DNA from: Lentibacillus amyloliquefaciens
GTDB taxonomy: Bacteria; Bacillota; Bacilli; Bacillales; Amphibacillaceae
Assembly: GCF_001307805.1 (NCBI RefSeq)
Contig: NZ_CP013862.1
Span: forward strand, 186,001-250,000
Direction of reading: 5' to 3'
DNA: 64,000 nucleotides
Shown here: positions 9,957 to 28,126 of the stretch, one piece after another
How the letters are laid out: each line of letters starts with the position of its first letter
Position numbering within the stretch: position 1 is the first letter of the stretch
Notes under the pieces: model-generated
Told to the model about the DNA's origin: nothing
Database searches by the model: none
Seen by the model: only the letters and a program-made list of their open reading frames with translations
Made by a program: the position numbers and the translations under genes

Positions 9957-10065
9957 TGGAGGAAATCGCGAAGTTCACAATTTAATGGATGAAATTCGAG
10001 GCGTAATCACCGCTTCCTTTCGATGTGCATAGGCTATAGCACAGTTTAGAAAGGAAGTGTCTGAC

Positions 10066-11486
10066 GTGGAAATAACCCTTTCACATTGGCTATACATCAT
10101 ATTCACATTAATAATAATTTTAACGATGATTTTTCGTAAGGGCGTTGTTTTGCCAACCTTACTGGGATCCTTTTTAGTCGCCTGGGTTTATCAAGGCAGT
10201 ATTGTTGATGGCTTTACTGCAATCTTTAATGCCAACCTCGTCGCAGCGAAAGAACTTTTCAATATCTTTTTGATTATTACCTTTATGATCGCTTTGTTGT
10301 ATTCGTTGCGGGATCTTGGTGCTGATAAACGAATGATTCAGCCTATCCAGAAATTAATGGTCAATGGTCACATTTCATTTTTTGTGCTGGTAGCGGTAAC
10401 CTACGTGATATCCTTATTCTTTTGGCCGACACCGGCAGTACCATTAATATGTGCGCTGCTTGTCCCGGCAGCCATCAGGTCGGGGCTCCCGGCAATGACT
10501 GCGGCAGTTGCCGTTGCATTGGCGGGGCAGGGGATGGCATTGTCCTCTGACTATATCGTGCAGGTTGCTCCAAATCTCTCGGCGACATCAGCAGGGATTG
10601 ACACAGCGCTCGTCGCGGATAAAGCAATTGTCTTATCGTTGATTGCAGGCTTTGTTGCCATTGGGACAGCATATATGTTGTACCGAAAAACCATCCGCTC
10701 AAAAAACAGTGAGATGAATGAAATTGAAATGAATCAGATGCAAATGGAAAAAGAATCCGAAAACAAAGCACAGTCAATTCATTTAAACACATGGAGCAGA
10801 GTTTTTGCGGTACTGGTTCCGGTATCCCTTTTGGCTGTTGTTATTTACATGATGTATGCAAAACTTAATTCAGGAAGGATGACGGGGTTTGAAGGCGGGA
10901 TGGCGCAGCTTTCGTCGGTGGTGTAGCCGTCATATTGCTGTTGTTATCCACGATCGCATTCGGCCGCCAGAAATCGTTGGACTACATCACAAACCACATT
11001 ACAGAAGGATTTGTCTTTGCATTTAAAGCAATGGGACCGGTTATCCCGATTGCAGGGTTCTTTTTTATGGGCAGTTCGGACTTTTCAGGAAGCATTCTTG
11101 GTATCGAAGAAAATGCGCCCGCATTCCTTTTTGATTTGGTTGAAGCATCACAGGGTTATTTGCCGGAAAGTGCGTTATTGACGGTGTTTAGTATCCTTAT
11201 TATTGGCATTATAACCGGTCTTGACGGTTCCGGTTTTTCCGGGCTGCCGCTGACAGGCGCTCTGGCAGCATCACTGGAAACAGCTTCGGTTGATGCAGGG
11301 ACGCTCGCTGCCATCGGACAGATGGGGTCGATCTGGACCGGGGGTGGAACGATTGTTGCCTGGTCTTCACTGATTGCGATTGCCGGTTTCTGTGGGGTAT
11401 CTGTTATGGAACTGGTCAGGAAAAACTTCGCGCCGGTGATGCTCGGGTTATTCGTTTCTGCCATTCTTGCATTGGTCATATTCTAG
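10066..11486 (+). pseudogene. Ion-transporter-superfamily permease, frameshifted
   Basis: Two adjacent frames together form one permease of the GntP/CitMHS-like ion-transporter group, with about 11-12 membrane segments. The first frame (GTG 10066 after AAGGAAG, ending at 10926) covers the N-terminal 60 percent. The second frame picks up in the -1 frame and continues to TAG at 11484, with WTGGGTIVAWSSL-like substrate-loop features. Around 10891-10902, inserting a single G in the GGCGGGATGG stretch restores a continuous protein reading GGDGAAFVGGVAVILLLLS. No slippery heptamer or downstream structure was spotted, so either a true inactivating deletion or a base-calling error is likely. The substrate (organic acid) is not determinable. 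Confidence 0.75.
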
Positions 11487-11583
11487 TAATTCTCAGGTAA
11501 AAATGTTACGATTTTGTGATAAACGGTTATATAACATATGCGAACCAATAATTATTCAAATATCAAAGACAGAAGGTGATAAG

Positions 11584-20587: not shown

Positions 20588-21532
20588 ATGGAAGTCCTGA
20601 ATAAAAAGATTATTTTCGTCGGTGGAAAGGGCGGTGTCGGCAAGTCGACAACTGCTGCGGCGATCGCATGGAAGTCCGCCGGAAAAGGGCACCGCACATT
20701 ATTGATTTCCACTGACCCGGCTCACAATTTAGGTGATATTTTTGATCAATCGATTGGCGGCAGTACAACAAATGTTTCTGAAAATCTGTTTGCGCTTGAA
20801 ATCGATCCGGCTATTGAGACTGACGCGTATATTAAAGGTGTGAAAGCGAATATCCAAAATGTTGTGCAGTCAAGCATGATGGAAGAAGTCCATCGTCAGC
20901 TTGATACTGCGAAGGCTTCACCCGGAGCAGACGAGGCAGCGTTATTCGATCGATTGATTTCCATCATATTAGAAGAAAGTGATGGATACGATAAGCTGAT
21001 TTTTGACACAGCGCCGACAGGTCATACAATAAGACTTTTGTCACTGCCGGAATTAATGGGTGTTTGGATTGAAGGCATGCTAAAAAAACGGCAGAAGACA
21101 AATGAAAATTACTCGGCTTTGCTTAACGACGGTGACCCTGTGGAAGACCCGATTTATGATGTGTTAAAAGAGCGTCAGGAGCGTTTTTCCAAGGCACGGG
21201 AAATATTGCTTGATGGCAGCTTAACCGGTTTTGTTTTTGTGCTTAATCCGGAACGTCTGCCGATTGAAGAAACGAAAAAAGCAATTGAATTACTCGATCA
21301 GTACCATTTGCATGTGAGAACTCTGATCGTCAATAAAATTTTGCCTGACGATGCAGATGGCGAATTTTTGCTTAAACGAAGAGAACACGAGCAGCAATAT
21401 ATGGAAATGATTAGAAAAGAATTTCAAAAGCAGGAGAAAATTTATGTTCCGTTGTTCCCACATGATATAATTAAACAAGAACATCTTGAAACAATTAGTC
21501 AGTATTATAAGGAGGAGGACATTGTTAGATGA
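20588..21532 (+). CDS. ArsA/Get3-type ATPase without cysteines
   Basis: A 314-residue single-domain P-loop ATPase of the ArsA/Get3 group. The deviant Walker A GGKGGVGKST is at residues 12-21, switch I is STDPAHNLGD and switch II is FDTAPTGHTIRLL. The protein contains no cysteine at all, so it lacks the arsenite-binding cysteine triad of ArsA and Get3's zinc CxxC. Arsenite efflux is therefore unlikely, and no arsB, arsC or arsR is nearby. It follows the CC-ending small protein gene and overlaps the next gene by ATGA, so the three are likely co-transcribed. A role as an ATP-driven targeting or chaperone factor for its small partner is a hypothesis. Confidence 0.85.
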   Translation: MEVLNKKIIFVGGKGGVGKSTTAAAIAWKSAGKGHRTLLISTDPAHNLGDIFDQSIGGSTTNVSENLFALEIDPAIETDAYIKGVKANIQNVVQSSMMEEVHRQLDTAKASPGADEAALFDRLISIILEESDGYDKLIFDTAPTGHTIRLLSLPELMGVWIEGMLKKRQKTNENYSALLNDGDPVEDPIYDVLKERQERFSKAREILLDGSLTGFVFVLNPERLPIEETKKAIELLDQYHLHVRTLIVNKILPDDADGEFLLKRREHEQQYMEMIRKEFQKQEKIYVPLFPHDIIKQEHLETISQYYKEEDIVR

Positions 21533-22515
21533 AAGCATTTGTACATGAATACGGAAAACTGAAAATAAAAGATATGAGTGTGCCTTTCGCTGATCATGGA
21601 CAAGTTAAGGTATCTATCAAAATGGCCGGTTTTAATCGCCGCGATGTAGCTGTGCCGGATCGCAGAGGAAATGATGCGGGTGCATTAATTCTTGGTTCTG
21701 ACGGCGCTGGTGTTGTGGAGGCCATCGGTGAAGGTGTCTCTGAATTCTCTGTTGGGGATGAAGTGATAGTTAACCCGTCGCTTGGCTGGTACGAAAATAC
21801 GGAAGCACCGCCAAAACAATTTGATATTCTTGGGATGCCTGATAATGGCACATTTACCGAAACAATCGTTTTGCCCGCAGAACAACTCGAAAAGAAACCC
21901 GGGCATTTATCCTGGGAAGAAGCAGGTGTGCTTGCGTTATCAGGATTGACAGGATACCGGGCGTTATTTACTAAAGGAAATTTGCGGGCTGAAGATACAT
22001 TGTTTATCCCGGGTGCCGGAAGCGGTGTGGCAACTTACTTGATTCAATTTGCCAAGAAAGCCGGTGCACGTGTAATTGTTTCTTCCCGAAGTGAGGAGAA
22101 GTGCAGCCAGGCACTTGAACTGGGTGCTGACCGCGCGATTGACACCAATAGTGACTGGTCTTTCGAACTGAAAGATGAGACAATCGATATTGTCATTGAC
22201 AGTGTAGGAGAGGCCACATTTAACCGGTCTCTTGATGTACTGAAAAAAGGCGGCCGCTTTGTGACATTCGGCGCCACAACAGACGATACAGTTGAACTGA
22301 ATCTGCGCAAGTTTTTCTACGGGCAATATAAGCTTATCGGTACGACAATGGGCAGTCAGGAAGAACTGCAAGCCATGCTGGCATATATCGACGAGCATCA
22401 GATCCATCCGGCGGTAGACCGGTCATTTTTGCTGGATGACGCACAAAACGCCCTTGAGTATCTGAAAGAATCGAAACAATTCGGGAAAGTCGTCCTGAAT
22501 GTCAGTGAATCATAA
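21529..22515 (+). CDS. Zinc-free medium-chain dehydrogenase/quinone-oxidoreductase family protein (YogA-like)
   Basis: This 328-residue MDR-superfamily oxidoreductase has an N-terminal GroES-like domain (GSDGAGVVEAIGEGV near residue 56) and a C-terminal NAD(P)-binding Rossmann fold (PGAGSGVATYLIQFAKKAGARVIV-like). The zinc-ligating cysteines of classical alcohol dehydrogenases are not evident. It overlaps the ArsA gene by ATGA, with AAGGAGGAGGAC as ribosome site, so it is translated from the same mRNA. The B. subtilis YogA resemblance is by length and motif only. Substrate unknown. Confidence 0.85.
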   Translation: MKAFVHEYGKLKIKDMSVPFADHGQVKVSIKMAGFNRRDVAVPDRRGNDAGALILGSDGAGVVEAIGEGVSEFSVGDEVIVNPSLGWYENTEAPPKQFDILGMPDNGTFTETIVLPAEQLEKKPGHLSWEEAGVLALSGLTGYRALFTKGNLRAEDTLFIPGAGSGVATYLIQFAKKAGARVIVSSRSEEKCSQALELGADRAIDTNSDWSFELKDETIDIVIDSVGEATFNRSLDVLKKGGRFVTFGATTDDTVELNLRKFFYGQYKLIGTTMGSQEELQAMLAYIDEHQIHPAVDRSFLLDDAQNALEYLKESKQFGKVVLNVSES

Positions 22516-22583: not shown

Positions 22584-23441
22584 TCATTGCAAATAAGGCG
22601 TGATCTTGTCAATTGCTTGCTGCATCCGCTCACTATTCCGCTGATAAAGCTGTTTGGATGCCTGATTTTCGGTGGCCAGAGCAAATAATTCGAGGTCAGC
22701 TTGGCATTTTTTCATTGAAGCCAGCAGAAGCGGCTTCTCAGTTGGCACGGGAACCGTCAGTTTATCATCGTATAAGTCAACTGTTAATTGACCGTCACTG
22801 TCGACTTGGGCAAGAAAAACATTTTCAATGCTGATATTCATCTTCTCGAGTTCCGTTTCCAGCCAATTCGTATTCAATGACGCATTGGCCAAAGGTTCCA
22901 GCAAGGCTTTACCATCCATAACCACTGTTTGGGGTTCCTTTTCCGGAGCAACGCTTGCGCCGAGTATTTTCGGTGTAATCGGCTGATTTTCTTTTTTGGG
23001 AAGCACATTGACTTTTCCGGTTGGCTCAAGAACGGCGAATTCTACATTGCGTGCATTGAAGATGTTATTGTTCCTGAGCTCTTTGAGCAGGTCATCTGTC
23101 GTATAGCGCTCTTTTTTTAAATTGTCTTCCATAATCTTTCCATTTTGGATTAAAACGGTTCCGTTCCCTTGGATGAGATTACGGAATCGTTTGCTCTTAA
23201 GCTGCATGAATTCAATGGTAATCGGAATCACAAGCCACACAGCCAGTGCCAGTAAGCCGTACATTACATTTGTCGTCACATCGGTCACATGTATGGCAAT
23301 GATACCGCCAATAACAATACCCGTAATATATTGAAAGATATCCAGCTGTGACATTTGTTTTTTGCCGAGTGCTTTGGTAATTAAAAATAAGACGATTAAA
23401 AAAACGACTGAACGCGTCAATATTTCTGCCCAACCTGGCAT
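22584..23441 (-). CDS. DUF421 (YetF-type) membrane protein with C-terminal DUF1657-like domain
   Basis: This 285-residue protein is last in the spoVA2mob-like operon. Three N-terminal membrane segments (about residues 9-25, 38-54, 60-78) lead into the DUF421 cytoplasmic domain with NGKIMEDNLKKERYTTDDLL. The final ~48 residues, from LLLASMKKCQADLELFAL onward, resemble the stand-alone DUF1657 proteins of the same operon (LKSAQASFEQFALQTENKQA). That makes it a DUF421-DUF1657 fusion. The B. subtilis spoVA2mob operon has a yetF-like gene in the same position. Start ATG 23441 follows AAAGGAATG. Function in the spore membrane is not known. Confidence 0.85.
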   Translation of the reverse strand: MPGWAEILTRSVVFLIVLFLITKALGKKQMSQLDIFQYITGIVIGGIIAIHVTDVTTNVMYGLLALAVWLVIPITIEFMQLKSKRFRNLIQGNGTVLIQNGKIMEDNLKKERYTTDDLLKELRNNNIFNARNVEFAVLEPTGKVNVLPKKENQPITPKILGASVAPEKEPQTVVMDGKALLEPLANASLNTNWLETELEKMNISIENVFLAQVDSDGQLTVDLYDDKLTVPVPTEKPLLLASMKKCQADLELFALATENQASKQLYQRNSERMQQAIDKITPYLQ

Positions 23442-23488
23442 AGAGAATCATTCCTTTATGATGGTTATCTGTTACGATTCTGATGAAC

Positions 23489-23692
23489 TTAGCTTTTATA
23501 TTGAGGTTCTTCTTTGGTCAAATGCAGCACCTGATTTTCCAGGTCATTTTGAACGGTTCGCATTGTATTCCGGACGTCATTGAATATTTCGTCTGCTTTC
23601 TGGTCCCGAGTTTTTGCTGAAAGGGATTCAAGTGTTGCTTCGATATTTTTAACAGATGCGAAACATCCTTTTACTTGTGAGCTGACAGTAAT
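23489..23692 (-). CDS. DUF1657 protein with possible ATT start
   Basis: This 67-residue protein is homologous to the DUF1657 protein at 26063: both read TVSSQVK near the start and end in EEPQYK. Alignment puts the first residue at codon ATT 23692-23690, with AAAGGATAGGATC just upstream as ribosome site. No ATG, GTG or TTG is at that place. The alternative, GTG at 23728, adds 12 unlike residues, has no ribosome site and lies within the restored spoVAE frame. Possibilities are a true ATT start, a mutated ATG or a sequence error. It lies between spoVAE and the DUF421 gene, as in the mobile spoVA2mob operon. Confidence 0.7.
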   Translation of the reverse strand: MTVSSQVKGCFASVKNIEATLESLSAKTRDQKADEIFNDVRNTMRTVQNDLENQVLHLTKEEPQYKS

Positions 23693-23699
23693 TTTGATC

Positions 23700-24049
23700 C
23701 TATCCTTTCGGTTTGAAAATGAAAGCACCGATTAGGCCGAAAATAATGGCAGCCGATATACCGGCACTGGTTACTTCGAAGATACCGGTCACCACCCAAT
23801 GATACCGTGTTGTTCAGCTTCTTGCATGGCCCCATGAACAAGCTGGTTGCCAAAATTTGTTATTGGAACAGTTGCTCCTGCCCCTGCAAAGTCAATGAGC
23901 GGATCGTATAATCCTAAACCATCAAGGATCGCCCCGGAGATGACAAAGATGGTTAAAGTGACCCCTGGATTAAGCTTAAACACATCAAAAAGAATCTGGC
24001 CAATGACACAAATTGTCCCGCCGATAACAAATGCCCAGAAAAATATCAT
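23700..24049 (-). pseudogene. spoVAEb: spoVAE (spoVAEb-type), frameshifted as sequenced
   Basis: SpoVAE is an integral membrane part of the SpoVA dipicolinic-acid channel. The frame from ATG 24049 runs 86 residues and stops early after HGIIGW. Adding one G to the GGG at the break gives [17 protein letters not shown] and continues to a TAG at 23702-23700, giving 116 residues, the normal length for this family. The C-terminal membrane helix is thus preserved in the DNA but out of frame. The start overlaps the spoVAD stop (ATGA). The intact downstream remainder suggests a very recent deletion or a homopolymer sequencing error. Confidence 0.8.
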
Positions 24050-25062
24050 TGACTATCACTTCCTGACTCAATCGAGACAGCGTGGGCGATGCACGGAATC
24101 GCGTCATTCTGCTGAACACTTAACGGGGAATGCAGTGAACCGGTGGCGACGACAAGAATGCGGCTTAACTGCTCATCCTTCATTAATTTTAAAAAATGAC
24201 CATAAACACCTACTGCTGAACTTGCGGTGCCGCTTGCCCCCGAGAGTACCGGCTGACCTTCGCGGTAGATGGTCAGACCGCAGTCCTGATAGCTTTCTTC
24301 TTGAATGGGGATGTTTTTCTCCCGCAGCATGTCCAGCGAAATTTCCCGGCCGACATGGCCAAGGTCGCCTGTTATGATTAAATCGTAGTAAGATGGATCG
24401 ATATCCCGCTCTCGTAAATGGGTTTCAATGGTATCGACAGCAGCAGGCGCCATGGCAGCTCCCATATTAAACGGATCTGACATTCCCATATCAACGACTT
24501 TGCCGATGGTGGCTGATGTGACAATTGGACCTTCGCCATTTTTAGCAACTAAGGCACAACCTGCCCCGGTAACAGTCCATTGCGCAGTAGGGGGCTTTTG
24601 ACCACCATATTCAGTTGGGTAACGAAACTGTTTTTCGGTTGCAGCATTATGGCTCGCCGTGCCGCTTAAAATGTAATCTGCCCCATCACCGTTAATAATG
24701 AAGGCAGCGAGTGCCAGGCTTTCCATCGATGTTGCACAGGCACTGAATAATCCTAAATACGGGACATCAAGCGTTTTAGCTGCGAAGTTACTCGGTGTGA
24801 TTTGGTTGATTAAATCACCGCTGATAAAAAAATTCACGTGTTCTTTTTGAATAAGACTGTTTTTGACAGCTGTCTGACTGGCTTCTTCCATCATGATGCG
24901 CTGGGCTTTTTCAAATGATGACTGCTTCAGCCACATATCATCATGCAATATATCAAATGCTTCCGGAACATTCCCACCTGCTTCAAACGGACCACCGACA
25001 GTCCCTGTGGAGATAATGACCGGGTGATTGTCAAAAACCCATGTCCGATGTCCTTCTAACAT
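24046..25062 (-). CDS. spoVAD: Stage V sporulation protein SpoVAD
   Basis: This 338-residue thiolase-fold protein binds dipicolinic acid and is needed for its uptake into the forespore. The length equals that of B. subtilis SpoVAD. Key stretches are [11 protein letters not shown] near the start, the [17 protein letters not shown] thiolase-like cysteine region and the [18 protein letters not shown] segment. The start is ATG 25062, overlapping the spoVAC stop as TAATG, with GGGGTGG 6 bases upstream; ATG 25077 lacks a ribosome site. It is the fourth gene of the minus-strand operon. Ordinary chromosomal spoVA operons also carry spoVAA, AB and AF, which are absent here. Confidence 0.93.
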
Positions 25063-25541
25063 TAGAGACCACCCCATTCAATCAAAATGGTTTTTATCAA
25101 GGCGATGACAAACGCCGAAAATACCCCATAAACGATAACAGGGCCTGCCAATTTAAACATATTGCCGCCAACTCCAAGGATAAGGCCTTCAGAACGATGC
25201 TCAATTGCTGAAGAAATAACTGCATTTCCAAACCCGGTCACCGGAACAGCCGACCCGGCGCCGGCAAATTGGCCAATACGATCGTACACACCAAAACCCG
25301 TCAAGAACATGGTGATGAAAATTAACGTTGCAACCGTCGGGTTTCCTGCCGTCTGTTCCGTAAACCCAAAGAAATAAACATAAATGGTGGATATGATCTG
25401 GCCGATAAAGCAAATGAAGCCACCTATGAGAAAAGCTTTAATGCAATTTTTAAGTAATGGACGTTTCACTTCTCTTTTGTCGGCAAAGGCTTGGTACCTT
25501 TGAGCATTTGGCGGTAAATTTTTCTTCTTGTTATCTGCCAT
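25062..25541 (-). CDS. spoVAC: Stage V sporulation protein SpoVAC
   Basis: This 159-residue polytopic membrane protein has about four membrane segments. SpoVAC of B. subtilis behaves as a mechanosensitive channel for dipicolinic acid. The repeat GFGVYDRIGQFAGAGSAVPVTGFGN, shared in form with SpoVAE ([24 protein letters not shown]), is diagnostic of the family. The N-terminus is basic and cytoplasmic. It begins 17 bases after the lipoprotein gene and overlaps spoVAD, so the operon is tightly packed. Confidence 0.93.
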   Translation of the reverse strand: MADNKKKNLPPNAQRYQAFADKREVKRPLLKNCIKAFLIGGFICFIGQIISTIYVYFFGFTEQTAGNPTVATLIFITMFLTGFGVYDRIGQFAGAGSAVPVTGFGNAVISSAIEHRSEGLILGVGGNMFKLAGPVIVYGVFSAFVIALIKTILIEWGGL

Positions 25542-25558
25542 ACATTCTCACGCTTCCT

Positions 25559-26011
25559 TTACGTTTTGTCCTTCTTTAGATTAATAAGACGATCAACTTC
25601 TTTGGTTAACTTCTTTGCTGAAATGTCGCGATCATTGATTTTTTTCTCCAGACTTTTGAGCTCAAGGACCAGTTTTTTATCGGCGGAAACCTCAACGTCC
25701 AGGTCAGGGAATTCTTCGTCCAATTGTTTTTGGATTTTTTTATTCAAATCGGCCAGCTGGAACCGCTTATGGTGTTTTATTTCAAATGCAAGAATCATTT
25801 TATTATCTGTATTGACAGCATGTATGGCTGTGATGTCGTCACGCTGTCTCAAGCTTTCCTTAGCCTGATTTGCAGCGGTTTGATTAATAGAGCTGTTGGT
25901 TGAAATCATGCTGTAATTAATATCGTCATTTGCTTCCGGTGGATTTGGATCGTTGCAGCCGATCAGAATTCCAGCAAGACTAAATATCATAAGGAATCTT
26001 AAGGCACGCAT
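25559..26011 (-). CDS. YhcN/YlaJ-type spore lipoprotein
   Basis: This 150-residue lipoprotein has a signal segment (MRALRFLMIFSLAGILIGC, Cys19) and a YhcN/YlaJ-like C-terminal part with alternating charged helices and strands. In the mobile spoVA2mob operon a yhcN/ylaJ-type gene sits between the first DUF1657 gene and spoVAC, exactly as here. YhcN proteins are spore or forespore associated in B. subtilis; YlaJ has been linked to spore cortex and germination behaviour. A perfect hairpin separates it from the first gene of the operon. Confidence 0.85.
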   Translation of the reverse strand: MRALRFLMIFSLAGILIGCNDPNPPEANDDINYSMISTNSSINQTAANQAKESLRQRDDITAIHAVNTDNKMILAFEIKHHKRFQLADLNKKIQKQLDEEFPDLDVEVSADKKLVLELKSLEKKINDRDISAKKLTKEVDRLINLKKDKT

Positions 26012-26031
26012 ATCTAACCTCCAGATTTGAG

Positions 26032-26058
26032 GGAGGCTGGCTTTTAAGGCCAGCCTCC
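26032..26058 (-). other. Intercistronic perfect hairpin in the spoVA operon
   Basis: GGAGGCTGGC and GCCAGCCTCC form a perfect 10-bp GC-rich stem with a 7-base loop, between the first DUF1657 gene and the lipoprotein gene. No T run follows on the transcribed strand, so attenuation or mRNA processing/stability is more plausible than full termination. Confidence 0.7.
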
Positions 26059-26062
26059 TTAT

Positions 26063-26269
26063 TTAAAAACCTTTATACTGCGGTTCCTCTTGTTCCATTT
26101 GCTGTACGCGAGGTTCGACCGATTGCAGAATCGTTTGGGTCTGATTGGCTGCATTTTCATAAAGCTTCTTAGCTTGTTTGTTTTCTGTCTGGAGTGCGAA
26201 TTGCTCAAAGCTCGCCTGTGCACTCTTAAGACCGGCTATTGTCTGTTTAACCTGGGATGAAACAGTCAT
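26063..26269 (-). CDS. DUF1657 protein, first gene of the spoVA2mob-like operon
   Basis: This 68-residue helical protein (TVSSQVKQTIAGLKSAQASF opening, EEPQYKGF end) belongs to DUF1657. Two such genes flank spoVAC-AD-AE in the heat-resistance operon carried by Tn1546-like elements of B. subtilis; the second copy here is at 23489. ATG 26269 follows an AAAGGAGGATAAATC site. A sigma-G-like promoter lies about 110 bases upstream. Function unknown; spore localisation is expected by context. Confidence 0.85.
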   Translation of the reverse strand: MTVSSQVKQTIAGLKSAQASFEQFALQTENKQAKKLYENAANQTQTILQSVEPRVQQMEQEEPQYKGF

Positions 26270-26563: not shown

Positions 26564-27013
26564 ATGAAAAGAATATTGGTGATTTCTGCATTGGCTGCGG
26601 TATGTATCCTTGCTATCGTCTCTTATTTCTTTTATGGGCAGGAGGCAGAGGCTGAGCTTACAAATGGCAATACAAATGCAACGCAGCAGGAAGATTTTAT
26701 TTTACATATTCGCGTGGAAAGTATGGAAGAGGGTTTTCAGGTGTCAAGGGCTCTTCAGTATGTCGGGGAGGGGTCTGTGGAAGTAGAACATCAGACACCG
26801 CTCGTTTCAGTATCATTCAAAAATCAGAATCATGATTATACAGGCAGTACTATGACTAAAACGTTAAATACAGGCAATAGCTACCACCCGCAAGGTCCGA
26901 AAACATTTGAAGCGCCAAGGAGTGGCACCTACATATTGTTTTGCGAAGCACGTTTCATGGTCAATGATAAGTTTATAACCATTAATCATCAGGAAGAATT
27001 GGAGTTTAATTAA
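26564..27013 (+). CDS. Membrane-anchored exported protein of unknown function
   Basis: This 149-residue protein has an N-terminal hydrophobic helix (about residues 5-24) that would act as signal or anchor, then an extracellular domain rich in beta-strand patterns and polar residues (FILHIRVESMEEGFQVSRAL). A weakly Ig-like or immunogenic-fold appearance is a guess. ATG 26564 follows GGGGGAGGGC. It is divergent from the spore operon. Post-stop repeat copy C follows immediately. No homologous family is recognised. Confidence 0.7.
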   Translation: MKRILVISALAAVCILAIVSYFFYGQEAEAELTNGNTNATQQEDFILHIRVESMEEGFQVSRALQYVGEGSVEVEHQTPLVSVSFKNQNHDYTGSTMTKTLNTGNSYHPQGPKTFEAPRSGTYILFCEARFMVNDKFITINHQEELEFN

Positions 27014-27107: not shown

Positions 27108-27848
27108 TTATTTTGCTGTTTCAGTTTCGTTTACTATGAAGTCAATGTCTCTTTCCGGTTTATTGTTATTTTCCCATTGTTTCAGTTGTTCAGCAGATGG
27201 TTCCGGGACCTCCGGAACGATTACGGAAATACTGTCGGGTGAGACCCATTTCGCGTCCAGTATTGGCCATGTATAATCCAGTACATCCACATCATCGGTT
27301 TGATTGCGTAGTGTTTTCTGTTCCCAGGAGTTAAGATCGATGACAACAATGTCAGAAAGCGGCGGATGAGATTCTTCCCGATTAAAATGGAACAGCATTT
27401 TTTTCTCGTCAGGTGACATGGTTTTCTGTACCAGTGTTGCCAAGTCAGCAATTAAATATGTTCTGTTTTCTTCGGTCCGGTCCAGCAATAAATAGGAGCA
27501 TGATGTTGATTCATGGCAAGAGAATTCAAGTAAATACAGATTTCTGTCAGCTGCTTGTATCGGCAGAAGTGTCATTTGTTCAATTGCTTCTTCACGCATT
27601 TGTACAGCCTGTAAATAACTGTTTAAAATGGGTACCATTTTTAGATTTACCATAACTTTTTCTTCCGGGAGGGCAAATTCAATAAATTCATCAACTTCTT
27701 TCTCATCACCATCTTCAATTTCCTGTTCAACGATTTCCGGTTCCTGGGTGGAATCTTCCGGGGGTGAATCAGATTTGACAATGACCGGTTCCTCGTTGCA
27801 TGCCATCAAAAACATGAGAGCTATAAAAACAAAAGCTTTCTTTCCCAT
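27108..27848 (-). CDS. Lipoprotein of unknown function
   Basis: This 246-residue lipoprotein has signal peptide MGKKAFVFIALMFLMAC with the lipobox LMAC and Cys17. A strongly acidic linker follows (about residues 25-60), then a globular domain with motifs such as LLLDRTEENRTYLIADLA and EKKMLFHFNREES that look like a beta-propeller or TolB-like repeat, though this is uncertain. ATG 27848 was chosen because GAAGGGGGCGGTGG lies just upstream and the signal peptide then begins properly. The gene converges on the plus-strand gene at 26564. Confidence 0.75.
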   Translation of the reverse strand: MGKKAFVFIALMFLMACNEEPVIVKSDSPPEDSTQEPEIVEQEIEDGDEKEVDEFIEFALPEEKVMVNLKMVPILNSYLQAVQMREEAIEQMTLLPIQAADRNLYLLEFSCHESTSCSYLLLDRTEENRTYLIADLATLVQKTMSPDEKKMLFHFNREESHPPLSDIVVIDLNSWEQKTLRNQTDDVDVLDYTWPILDAKWVSPDSISVIVPEVPEPSAEQLKQWENNNKPERDIDFIVNETETAK

Positions 27849-28126
27849 ACCACCGCCCCCTTCAATCAAATCTTTTTATCCATTATACTAGAAATAAGAG
27901 CTGAAAGAAGTCCTGAACAATAAAAAACACCTCTGATCTATCACTTGCTCTGCTTTGGACCATTTCAAAGGTGTTTATGATGCTTTTTTTGCACATATAT
28001 TTTGTAAAGCGTTTTTCCGCTGATAATCTTCCTAAACAACGGAAGGATACCTGTGATATCAATTTATCGGTATTTTTGTTAAACTTAGTTTAAAGCAAGC
28101 ATTAGATACGGAGGGTTTGATAATTC
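27849..28126. other. Intergenic region with a long inverted repeat before moeA
   Basis: AAACACCTCTGA near 27930 is mirrored by TCAAAGGTGTTT near 27965-27980, enclosing about 35 bases, and there are A/T runs on both outer sides (TTTTTTT downstream on the plus strand). It could be an intrinsic terminator in either direction or a small RNA; no gene ends here on either strand. An AT-rich stretch with ATTTTTGTTAAACTTAG follows up to moeA. Confidence 0.5.

Follow-up and report, generated by a model that had tools for sequence, protein, structure and literature searches.

The operon at positions 22584-26269 (minus strand) of the window, by which we mean the whole stretch of 64,000 nucleotides analysed here, is very probably a chromosomal spoVA2 (5A2) and the only recognisable SpoVA channel set of its genome. 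In the host Lentibacillus, a salt-loving spore former, the spoVA2 core has very probably replaced the classical core of the dipicolinic acid (DPA) channel, with SpoVAA, SpoVAB, and SpoVAF kept as a separate module.

The initial annotation had described the full gene content of spoVA2mob on the minus strand, and examination of the open reading frames with Pfam profiles bore this out: all seven genes were present over the whole span and in the order DUF1657, YhcN/YlaJ lipoprotein, SpoVAC, SpoVAD, SpoVAEb, DUF1657, and 2Duf, which is the order of spoVA2mob. The features are as follows.

21529-22515, plus strand: zinc-binding dehydrogenase (YogA-like in the initial annotation), conserved flank (Pfam and synteny)
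22584-23441, minus strand: 2Duf, 285 aa, final gene of the operon (PF20730, E = 4.6e-06; PF04239, E = 4.8e-41; PF07870, E = 5.4e-18)
23489-23728, minus strand: second free DUF1657 protein, 79 aa as mechanically called (PF07870, E = 7.6e-11)
23789-24049, minus strand: SpoVAEb (Eb2), channel subunit, 5' part only, 86 aa (PF03862, E = 1.1e-29)
24046-25077, minus strand: SpoVAD (D2), plug subunit, 343 aa (PF07451, E = 2.9e-150)
25062-25541, minus strand: SpoVAC (C2), membrane channel subunit, 159 aa (PF03862, E = 2.6e-40)
25559-26011, minus strand: YhcN/YlaJ-like lipoprotein, 150 aa (PF09580, E = 1.6e-05)
26063-26269, minus strand: first free DUF1657 protein, 68 aa (PF07870, E = 3.9e-22)
26564-27013, plus strand: 149-aa protein with no Pfam family above cut-off, conserved flank (Pfam and synteny)

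SpoVAC scored 209.7 bits with TIGR02838 (cut-off, 164), and the structure of B. subtilis SpoVAD (3LM6) was related to the window SpoVAD with an E value of 4.7e-96. The lipoprotein scored 25.5 bits with PF09580, slightly below the cut-off of 26.3, and a lipobox cysteine was seen in its sequence; in place and kind it matches NJ2, which caps the SpoVA2 complex described in PMC13059800. The real start of the second DUF1657 protein may lie further inside its reading frame. The DUF421 protein was of the fused "2Duf" type, consisting of YetF_N, DUF421, and a C-terminal DUF1657 domain. No sigma-G promoter was recognised by pattern and alignment before the first DUF1657 gene in the window or in other Lentibacillus, in which respect the operon may differ from spoVA2 of the B. 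cereus group and which counts against our reading; a sigma-G-like motif was found upstream in 21 of the 46 loci tested, against 3% of shuffles.

Subsequently, the 3.86-Mb single-contig genome was searched for other channel genes. Only two SpoVAC/SpoVAEb-family matches were obtained, both from the window operon, and the one SpoVAD of the whole genome was the window copy. No SpoVAEa was found; the B. subtilis positive control was detected in each of the SpoVAC/SpoVAEb, SpoVAD, and SpoVAEa searches. As searches by protein family, they would miss a DPA transporter of unrelated kind. A remnant of the ordinary operon, spoVAA-spoVAB-spoVAF, from which C, D, Eb, and Ea are missing, was located 0.78 Mb away beside sigF, in the Pfam-checked order spoIIAB-sigF-spoVAA-spoVAB-18 bp-spoVAF-lysA-ppiB. 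The arrangement downstream of sigF was therefore A-B-F, not A-B-C-D-Eb-Ea-F. The initial annotation had raised the matter of a separate spoVAA-AF operon elsewhere in the genome; such a second locus exists, but the channel genes are absent from it. FigP was also present. The dN/dS values of the orphan A, B, and F genes between Lentibacillus genomes were 0.04-0.09, but dS approached saturation in several of the comparisons and no value was obtained for some; judged from these sequence comparisons, spoVAA, spoVAB, and spoVAF look selected.

One gene of the window operon was broken. The spoVAEb reading frame ends after 86 aa and its homologous remainder continues in another frame to about 23703 (tblastn pieces at 23703 and 23795), so that the sole channel would be incomplete as assembled, a point against our reading. 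Among 20 relatives, 18 had an Eb reading frame of 116-131 aa at the same place, and none was seen there in the other two (L042 and L058). Frameshifts in spoIIAB and dacF of the same genome, which put three of the four breaks seen in sporulation genes, would fit a strain with decaying sporulation, in which spoVAEb, spoIIAB, and dacF are genuinely disrupted and only a relic of the operon is left. We regard this as unlikely. All four breaks were single-base deletions and one hit a gene for a membrane protein not known to act in sporulation, which is what indel errors in long reads would produce; the sample of breaks was also biased, since the stretches checked had been picked around sporulation genes. 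Moreover, SpoVAA, SpoVAB, SpoVAF, SpoVAC, and SpoVAD were intact here and SpoVAEb was intact in relatives, and decay would leave the missing trio of C, D, and Eb in relatives unexplained. The spoVAEb frameshift is probably an assembly error.

The identity of the seven genes in kind and order with spoVA2mob could also suggest an accessory heat-resistance island, brought in by a mobile element and placed beside a normal spoVA operon. This reading is very improbable, already contradicted by the whole-genome searches: no other SpoVAC, SpoVAEb, or SpoVAD existed for it to supplement, and the sigF locus held only spoVAA, spoVAB, and spoVAF. The initial annotation had seen no part of Tn1546 in the 64 kb, and indeed queries with the transposase and resolvase (Tn3 family) from the plasmid element of B. 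velezensis matched nothing meaningful in the window (best E value, 3.3); each found itself in the plasmid copy (L183), the positive control. Carriage on a Tn1546-like (Tn3-family) element was thus not observed in the window, and the neighbours were conserved: moaA-moeA-(253 aa)-(149 aa)-[operon]-adh-arsA-cstA recurred, whole or in part, in many genera of the host family. No match to spoVA2mob was obtained in phage records. In the tree of concatenated SpoVAC, SpoVAD, and SpoVAEb, the ten host-family rows formed one clade with the mobile operon outside (100/98), and the mobile operon grouped with Priestia plasmid and Heyndrickxia copies, not with Lentibacillus. The conserved neighbours and this clade agree with the chromosomal, long-fixed form that had been proposed from the window.

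In the same tree, the window proteins were placed inside the spoVA2 clade (100/100), as distinct from the canonical, sigF-linked clade (100/100). The possibility left by the initial annotation that SpoVAC and SpoVAD group with the ordinary spoVA operon was rejected (AU test, p = 3.7e-37). Single-base errors or breaks do occur in the assembly, and an assembly gap or collapse might be thought to have removed the classical trio; we give this hardly any weight, because the genome is a single contig with a spoVAB-spoVAF junction of 18 bp, the trio is likewise absent there in L. persicus, L. halodurans, V. subterraneus, O. massiliensis, and others, and exactly two SpoVAC/SpoVAEb-family matches were found in 33 of 49 named genomes, L028 lying outside the searched set. 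Equally negligible is the idea that the trio only moved, the remote C-D-Eb being a relocated sigF-linked set rather than a paralogue: such relocation is known elsewhere (G343 and G420 have sigF-linked-type C and D apart, with Eb left behind), but the C+D+Eb tree and AU test speak against it for the window, as does a SpoVAD tree of 111 rows, built from rows of at least 300 aa after removal of preset duplicates and close relatives (later SpoVAD typing was made without the SpoVAD of G444 and the second remote SpoVAD of G289).

The absence of the classical core from its usual place was not confined to this genome. SpoVAD was encoded elsewhere than beside SpoVAA in 123 of the 133 host-family genomes with SpoVAA (in one, G025, SpoVAA stands at a contig end and the downstream genes there are off the contig); the ten with SpoVAD beside SpoVAA belonged to one genus (g16). 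Three stages were seen among 71 sigF loci, a count that excludes two loci lacking a lysA match (L131, A-B-F; L175, contig end): the full trio in 12, A-B-Ea-F in 22, and A-B-F in 37. A-B-Ea-F is an intermediate state. The trio was also absent from the sigF locus in Neobacillus/Robertmurraya-type genomes and Evansella. A survey of SpoVAD in 110 genomes, made among the matches listed with weaker ones lying outside them, left 34 of the 110 unjudged. Free trees nested g16, the genus with classical spoVA, inside the host family (SH-aLRT 94; 92/83), and a single loss within the host family was not rejected (AU p = 0.22); assuming that the trio never came back, a minimum of three losses is required on that tree, in the host family, the Neobacillus/Robertmurraya group, and Evansella. 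The operon neighbours adh and moeA were not found at E 1e-60 in five g16 genomes, and as these searches had no positive control, loss of spoVA2 in g16 is indistinguishable from never having had it.

By homology to the studied SpoVA2 complex, SpoVAC and SpoVAEb would form a channel in the forespore inner membrane, which SpoVAD may plug from inside and the NJ2-like lipoprotein may cap from outside; the complex would load DPA in sporulation and release it in germination, and 2Duf with the DUF1657 proteins is predicted to alter the inner membrane and add wet-heat resistance. DPA import and export by the C/D/Eb/NJ2 complex here is presumed from PMC13059800, in which spoVA2 was necessary and sufficient for wild-type DPA accumulation in B. 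anthracis. According to PMC11841064, a minimal channel consists of C-D-Eb; A and B influence premature germination, and Ea and F are dispensable for DPA accumulation. We infer that DPA transport passed to the paralogous spoVA2 core in an ancestor and that the classical core was lost afterwards; SpoVAA/AB and SpoVAF-FigP would have survived because they do a job that can be separated from that of the channel core.

More broadly, we lean towards a view of SpoVA as an exchangeable channel cartridge (C-D-Eb) with a separate regulatory and ion-channel module (A, B, and F-FigP). In many families of Bacilli the spoVA2 cartridge would have taken the place of the classical one, which would have left the sigF operon mostly in one piece; the textbook seven-gene operon would then be one of several states and not the rule. 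The replacement channel of Lentibacillus would also have fixed Asn65 in SpoVAEb. In a published SpoVAEb mutant, a change to Asn65 made the cap lipoprotein dispensable, with DPA release modestly slower. The idea that Asn65 frees NJ2 to diverge was not supported by median NJ2/SpoVAD distance ratios, which were 4.3 in Lentibacillus and 2.5 in Robertmurraya (Asn65); 4.2 and 4.7 in Oceanobacillus groups, 5.3 in Aquibacillus, and 2.8 in Neobacillus (Ser65); the ratio was 5.0 in mixed Ornithinibacillus and 1.2 in one Ser65 Virgibacillus pair. Nor is Asn65 a distinguishing mark of spoVA2mob: it is present in the B. velezensis plasmid copy, but L222 and L252, in which SpoVAD is nearly identical or identical to that of the plasmid copy, have Ser.

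Chromosomal spoVA2 as such is not new, copies having been published for the B. cereus group (PMC10126465; PMC13059800). That spoVA2 has the same seven genes in the same order, with C2/D2/Eb2, an NJ2-type lipoprotein, two free DUF1657 proteins, and 2Duf. The B. cereus group also has a complete seven-gene spoVA1, whereas spoVA1 of the genome studied here has lost C, D, Eb, and Ea, leaving spoVA2 as the only core. The operon shares gene content and order with spoVA2mob on Tn1546-like elements (PMC5133452; SpoVAD 66% identical to that of the plasmid copy), but differs from it in the missing Tn3 match, the conserved chromosomal neighbours, and its separate tree branch. Compared with the classical spoVA (spoVA1) of B. 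subtilis, C, D, and Eb are homologous and the sigF-spoVAA-spoVAB...spoVAF-lysA frame is kept, but the frame lacks C, D, Eb, and Ea, and the window C, D, and Eb fall in the other clade. Our literature search found no earlier report of spoVA2 replacing the classical core with SpoVAA/AB/AF kept.

Work on spoVA2 has so far treated it as an extra copy or a mobile heat-resistance trait. In most sampled genomes of the host family, it appears to bear the whole DPA burden, and its presence alone should not be taken to indicate unusual heat resistance. The loss of C-D-Eb with A, B, and F kept, apparently under selection, is a natural experiment that parts the channel core from its helpers, and makes it testable whether the target of SpoVAA, SpoVAB, and SpoVAF is the channel or the germinant receptors.

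The operon reads on the minus strand of the window from 26269 to 22584 as a DUF1657 protein, a YhcN/YlaJ-like lipoprotein, SpoVAC, SpoVAD, SpoVAEb, a second DUF1657 protein and a DUF421 protein. Pfam supported every one of the seven proteins, the lipoprotein slightly under the cut-off, and showed that the last belongs to the "2Duf" type, carrying a further DUF1657 domain at its C-terminus; these results bore out the placement, gene set and order in the initial annotation. The same set and order are described for the mobile heat-resistance operon spoVA2mob in PMC5133452 and were found in the spoVA2mob of a B. velezensis plasmid, where the operon adjoins a Tn3-family transposase. The transposase and resolvase of that plasmid element had no detectable match within the 64-kb window, in which the initial annotation had likewise seen no Tn1546 part. 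The source genome is one contig of 3.86 Mb, 99.9% complete, and the window is its bases 186001-250000. Among named SpoVAD proteins, the one from Lentibacillus persicus was closest (93%), and those of other Lentibacillus came next. No sigma-G promoter was recognized for the operon. Two proteins at window 26564-27013 and 27108-27869, neither with a Pfam family above the cut-off, adjoin the operon in many genera and are possibly encoded by spore-related genes.

Subsequently, the entire genome was searched. Only two members of the SpoVAC/SpoVAEb family were present, both within the window operon; SpoVAD was single-copy, and SpoVAEa gave no match. A B. subtilis control was positive in each family search (SpoVAC/SpoVAEb, SpoVAD, SpoVAEa, SpoVAA, FigP and GerA). 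The window operon is the only recognizable SpoVAC-SpoVAD-SpoVAEb core (hereafter the trio) of this genome. SpoVAA was located 0.78 Mb from the operon, and the sigF locus was arranged as spoIIAB-sigF-spoVAA-spoVAB-18 bp-spoVAF-lysA-ppiB, with SpoVAA, SpoVAB, SpoVAF and sigF confirmed by Pfam. The separate spoVAA-AF operon considered in the initial annotation thus exists beside sigF as spoVAA, spoVAB and spoVAF, and lacks the rest: this locus is the classical spoVA operon (spoVA1) minus spoVAC, spoVAD, spoVAEb and spoVAEa. FigP, the partner of SpoVAF, and three more GerA-family proteins were also found. Among Lentibacillus genomes, dN/dS was 0.04-0.09 for SpoVAA, SpoVAB and SpoVAF, as compared with 0.04 for sigF, 0.05-0.10 for lysA and 0.02-0.05 for SpoVAC and SpoVAD of the operon; these values are rough, because several pairs had a high or saturated dS and three others gave no value. 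The orphan SpoVAA, SpoVAB and SpoVAF, with dN/dS similar to sigF and lysA and to the operon's SpoVAC and SpoVAD, look kept.

The window spoVAEb is frameshifted after approximately 85 residues, and that of relatives is intact. Compared with L. persicus, three of the 41 orthologues measuring 120 aa or more were likewise split; each of the four breaks is a single-base deletion relative to that species:
Window 23789-24049, minus strand: spoVAEb
Locus L083, 6760-7193: spoIIAB
Locus L083, 7879-9056: dacF
Window about 10036-11506: membrane-protein gene
Assembly error is the likelier cause and probably explains the four breaks; decay of sporulation genes, to which three of the four broken genes belong, is less likely.

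In a tree of SpoVAC, SpoVAD and SpoVAEb (33 rows), the window fell within the spoVA2 clade (100/100) and the canonical rows formed the other clade (100/100). Forcing the window to join the canonical rows lowered lnL by 90 and was rejected (AU p 3.7e-37); the split and this test rule out that the window trio is a relocated spoVA1. The SpoVAC and SpoVAD grouping with ordinary spoVA that the initial annotation had weighed is accordingly rejected. A SpoVAD tree of 111 rows concurred, its spoVA2 clade holding 97 rows (SH-aLRT 96). In the three-protein tree, the ten family rows inside spoVA2 formed one clade (100/98) with the mobile operon outside, the latter clustering with Priestia plasmid and Heyndrickxia copies (98/94). 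Furthermore, the operon flanks, with moaA, moeA and 253-aa and 149-aa proteins on one side and adh, arsA and cstA on the other, were conserved completely or partially in many family genera. This clade and the recurring neighbours indicate that the operon is old and was inherited mostly vertically within the family, in keeping with the ancestral chromosomal form or long-fixed acquisition first suggested.

Among 146 family genomes, SpoVAD was matched in 144 and SpoVAA in 133. In 10 of the 133, all of genus g16 with one SpoVAD apiece, SpoVAD and SpoVAA were no more than 2.3 kb apart; in the other 123, SpoVAD lay away from SpoVAA (at least 79 kb distant on the same contig in 52, on a different contig in 71). 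We also counted 71 sigF loci, covering most family genera having SpoVAA and some named genomes: the trio with SpoVAEa was present in 12 (SpoVAA unmatched in 3), spoVAA-AB-AEa-AF without the trio in 22 and spoVAA-AB-AF in 37. In the family sample, 42 of 44 loci were without the trio, both keepers being g16. Named genomes without it at this locus include L. persicus, L. halodurans, Virgibacillus subterraneus, Ornithinibacillus caprae, Oceanobacillus massiliensis, O. oncorhynchi and Aquibacillus rhizosphaerae.

Outside the family, the trio was kept at 10 of 20 named sigF loci and absent from those of Neobacillus, Niallia, Robertmurraya (two), B. methanolicus, Heyndrickxia ginsengihumi, Rossellomorea, Bacillus sp. 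V3B, Bacillus sp. BHET2 and Evansella. Exactly two SpoVAC/SpoVAEb-family matches were found in 33 of 49 named genomes and more in 16, in a non-random sample picked for a window-like SpoVAD. Of 259 genomes sampled across the class, 110 had SpoVAA, with SpoVAD adjoining in 26 and only elsewhere in 50; these counts rest on the stronger matches listed, leaving 34 unplaced. When 16 of the "elsewhere" genomes were sampled, the remote SpoVAD examined belonged to a broad spoVA2 clade (95/95) in 13, grouped with sigF-linked proteins in two (G343 and G420) and was not among the tree's rows in one. In G343 (L249/L250) and G420 (L260/L261), sigF-linked-type SpoVAC and SpoVAD were relocated, and SpoVAEb stayed with SpoVAA-SpoVAB-SpoVAEa. 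Three f12 genomes (5-7 Mb) each had one SpoVAD at the base of the broad clade, and its assignment to spoVA2 is less sure. SpoVAF was not found at the class-sample sigF loci L241, L249, L251, L254, L260 and L273. In one Clostridia record SpoVAC-SpoVAD-SpoVAE comes immediately after sigF; on this single example, the position next to sigF probably predates the remote one.

Several variants were observed elsewhere. SpoVAD of L222 (G170, uncultured Metabacillus) and L252 (G402, f36; SpoVAEb frame interrupted) was nearly identical or identical to that of the B. velezensis plasmid spoVA2mob, so this mobile operon seems to extend into further families. In L185 (CP079755, labelled Klebsiella grimontii plasmid pNY3A), a spoVA2 operon occurs together with a spore former's germination genes, and the record looks mislabelled or contaminated. 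The trio was split in Salipaludibacillus aurantiacus (L042, L224), Evansella caseinilytica (L044, L193) and G021 (L148): SpoVAD accompanied DUF1657 and 2Duf, and SpoVAEb, or SpoVAC with SpoVAEb, lay elsewhere; no SpoVAEb was seen next to SpoVAD in G021. Seven f1 loci (L095, L100, L134, L156, L160, L161 and L162) had a spoVA2-clade trio with no adjoining 2Duf or DUF1657 match, and their nesting among 2Duf-bearing relatives suggests 2Duf loss. SpoVAD of L139 (G008) and L180 (G051), from genomes without SpoVAA, was very divergent (39-41% to the window; long branch). Three equal-scoring SpoVAD copies in addition to a sigF-linked one in G352 (class sample, f2) suggest several copies of mobile spoVA2.

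As reported in PMC13059800, SpoVAEb S65N restores dipicolinic acid (DPA) import without NJ2, the cap lipoprotein of the SpoVA2 complex, and modestly slows DPA release. Matching position 65 by residue number and the motif VPIT-x-FGN, we found Ser in 158, Asn in 20 and Gly in 3 of 181 rows, duplicates included. Asn65 occurred in:
Lentibacillus group closest to the window (7 of 7 rows): window, L003-L007, L181
Further loci: L019, L094, L057/L061/L067/L071/L077
B. velezensis plasmid copy: L183
Besides Lentibacillus and the plasmid, the carriers were Robertmurraya and B. methanolicus, Ornithinibacillus halophilus and G050; the change found in the NJ2-deletion suppressor thus occurs naturally in several separate groups. 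L. populi and L. sediminis, placed apart from this group by the SpoVAD tree, were not among the Asn rows. The 120 listed database proteins closest to the plasmid copy had Asn in 1 and Ser in 117, the pattern being unreadable in 2. No link was found between Asn65 and faster NJ2 evolution.

In the open-access literature as searched, mostly by title and abstract, we recognized no account of spoVA2 as a sole core or of a gutted sigF-linked spoVA operon; the absence of an earlier description is provisional. PMC3533761 lists spoVAC, spoVAD and spoVAEB in all spore formers, disregarding type, and a term search of the main text of PMC10126465 returned no Lentibacillus, Oceanobacillus or Virgibacillus.

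We propose that an ancestor would have held both cores, as Alkalihalophilus or Pseudalkalibacillus still do, and that the classical core would then have been lost. According to PMC11841064, SpoVAC-SpoVAD-SpoVAEb is the minimal channel, loss of SpoVAA or SpoVAB causes premature germination that is suppressed by gerA removal, DPA accumulates without need for SpoVAEa or SpoVAF, and SpoVAF-FigP is an ion channel. The genomes fit this division: the channel core is replaced, part of the family lacks SpoVAEa, and SpoVAA, SpoVAB and SpoVAF persist.
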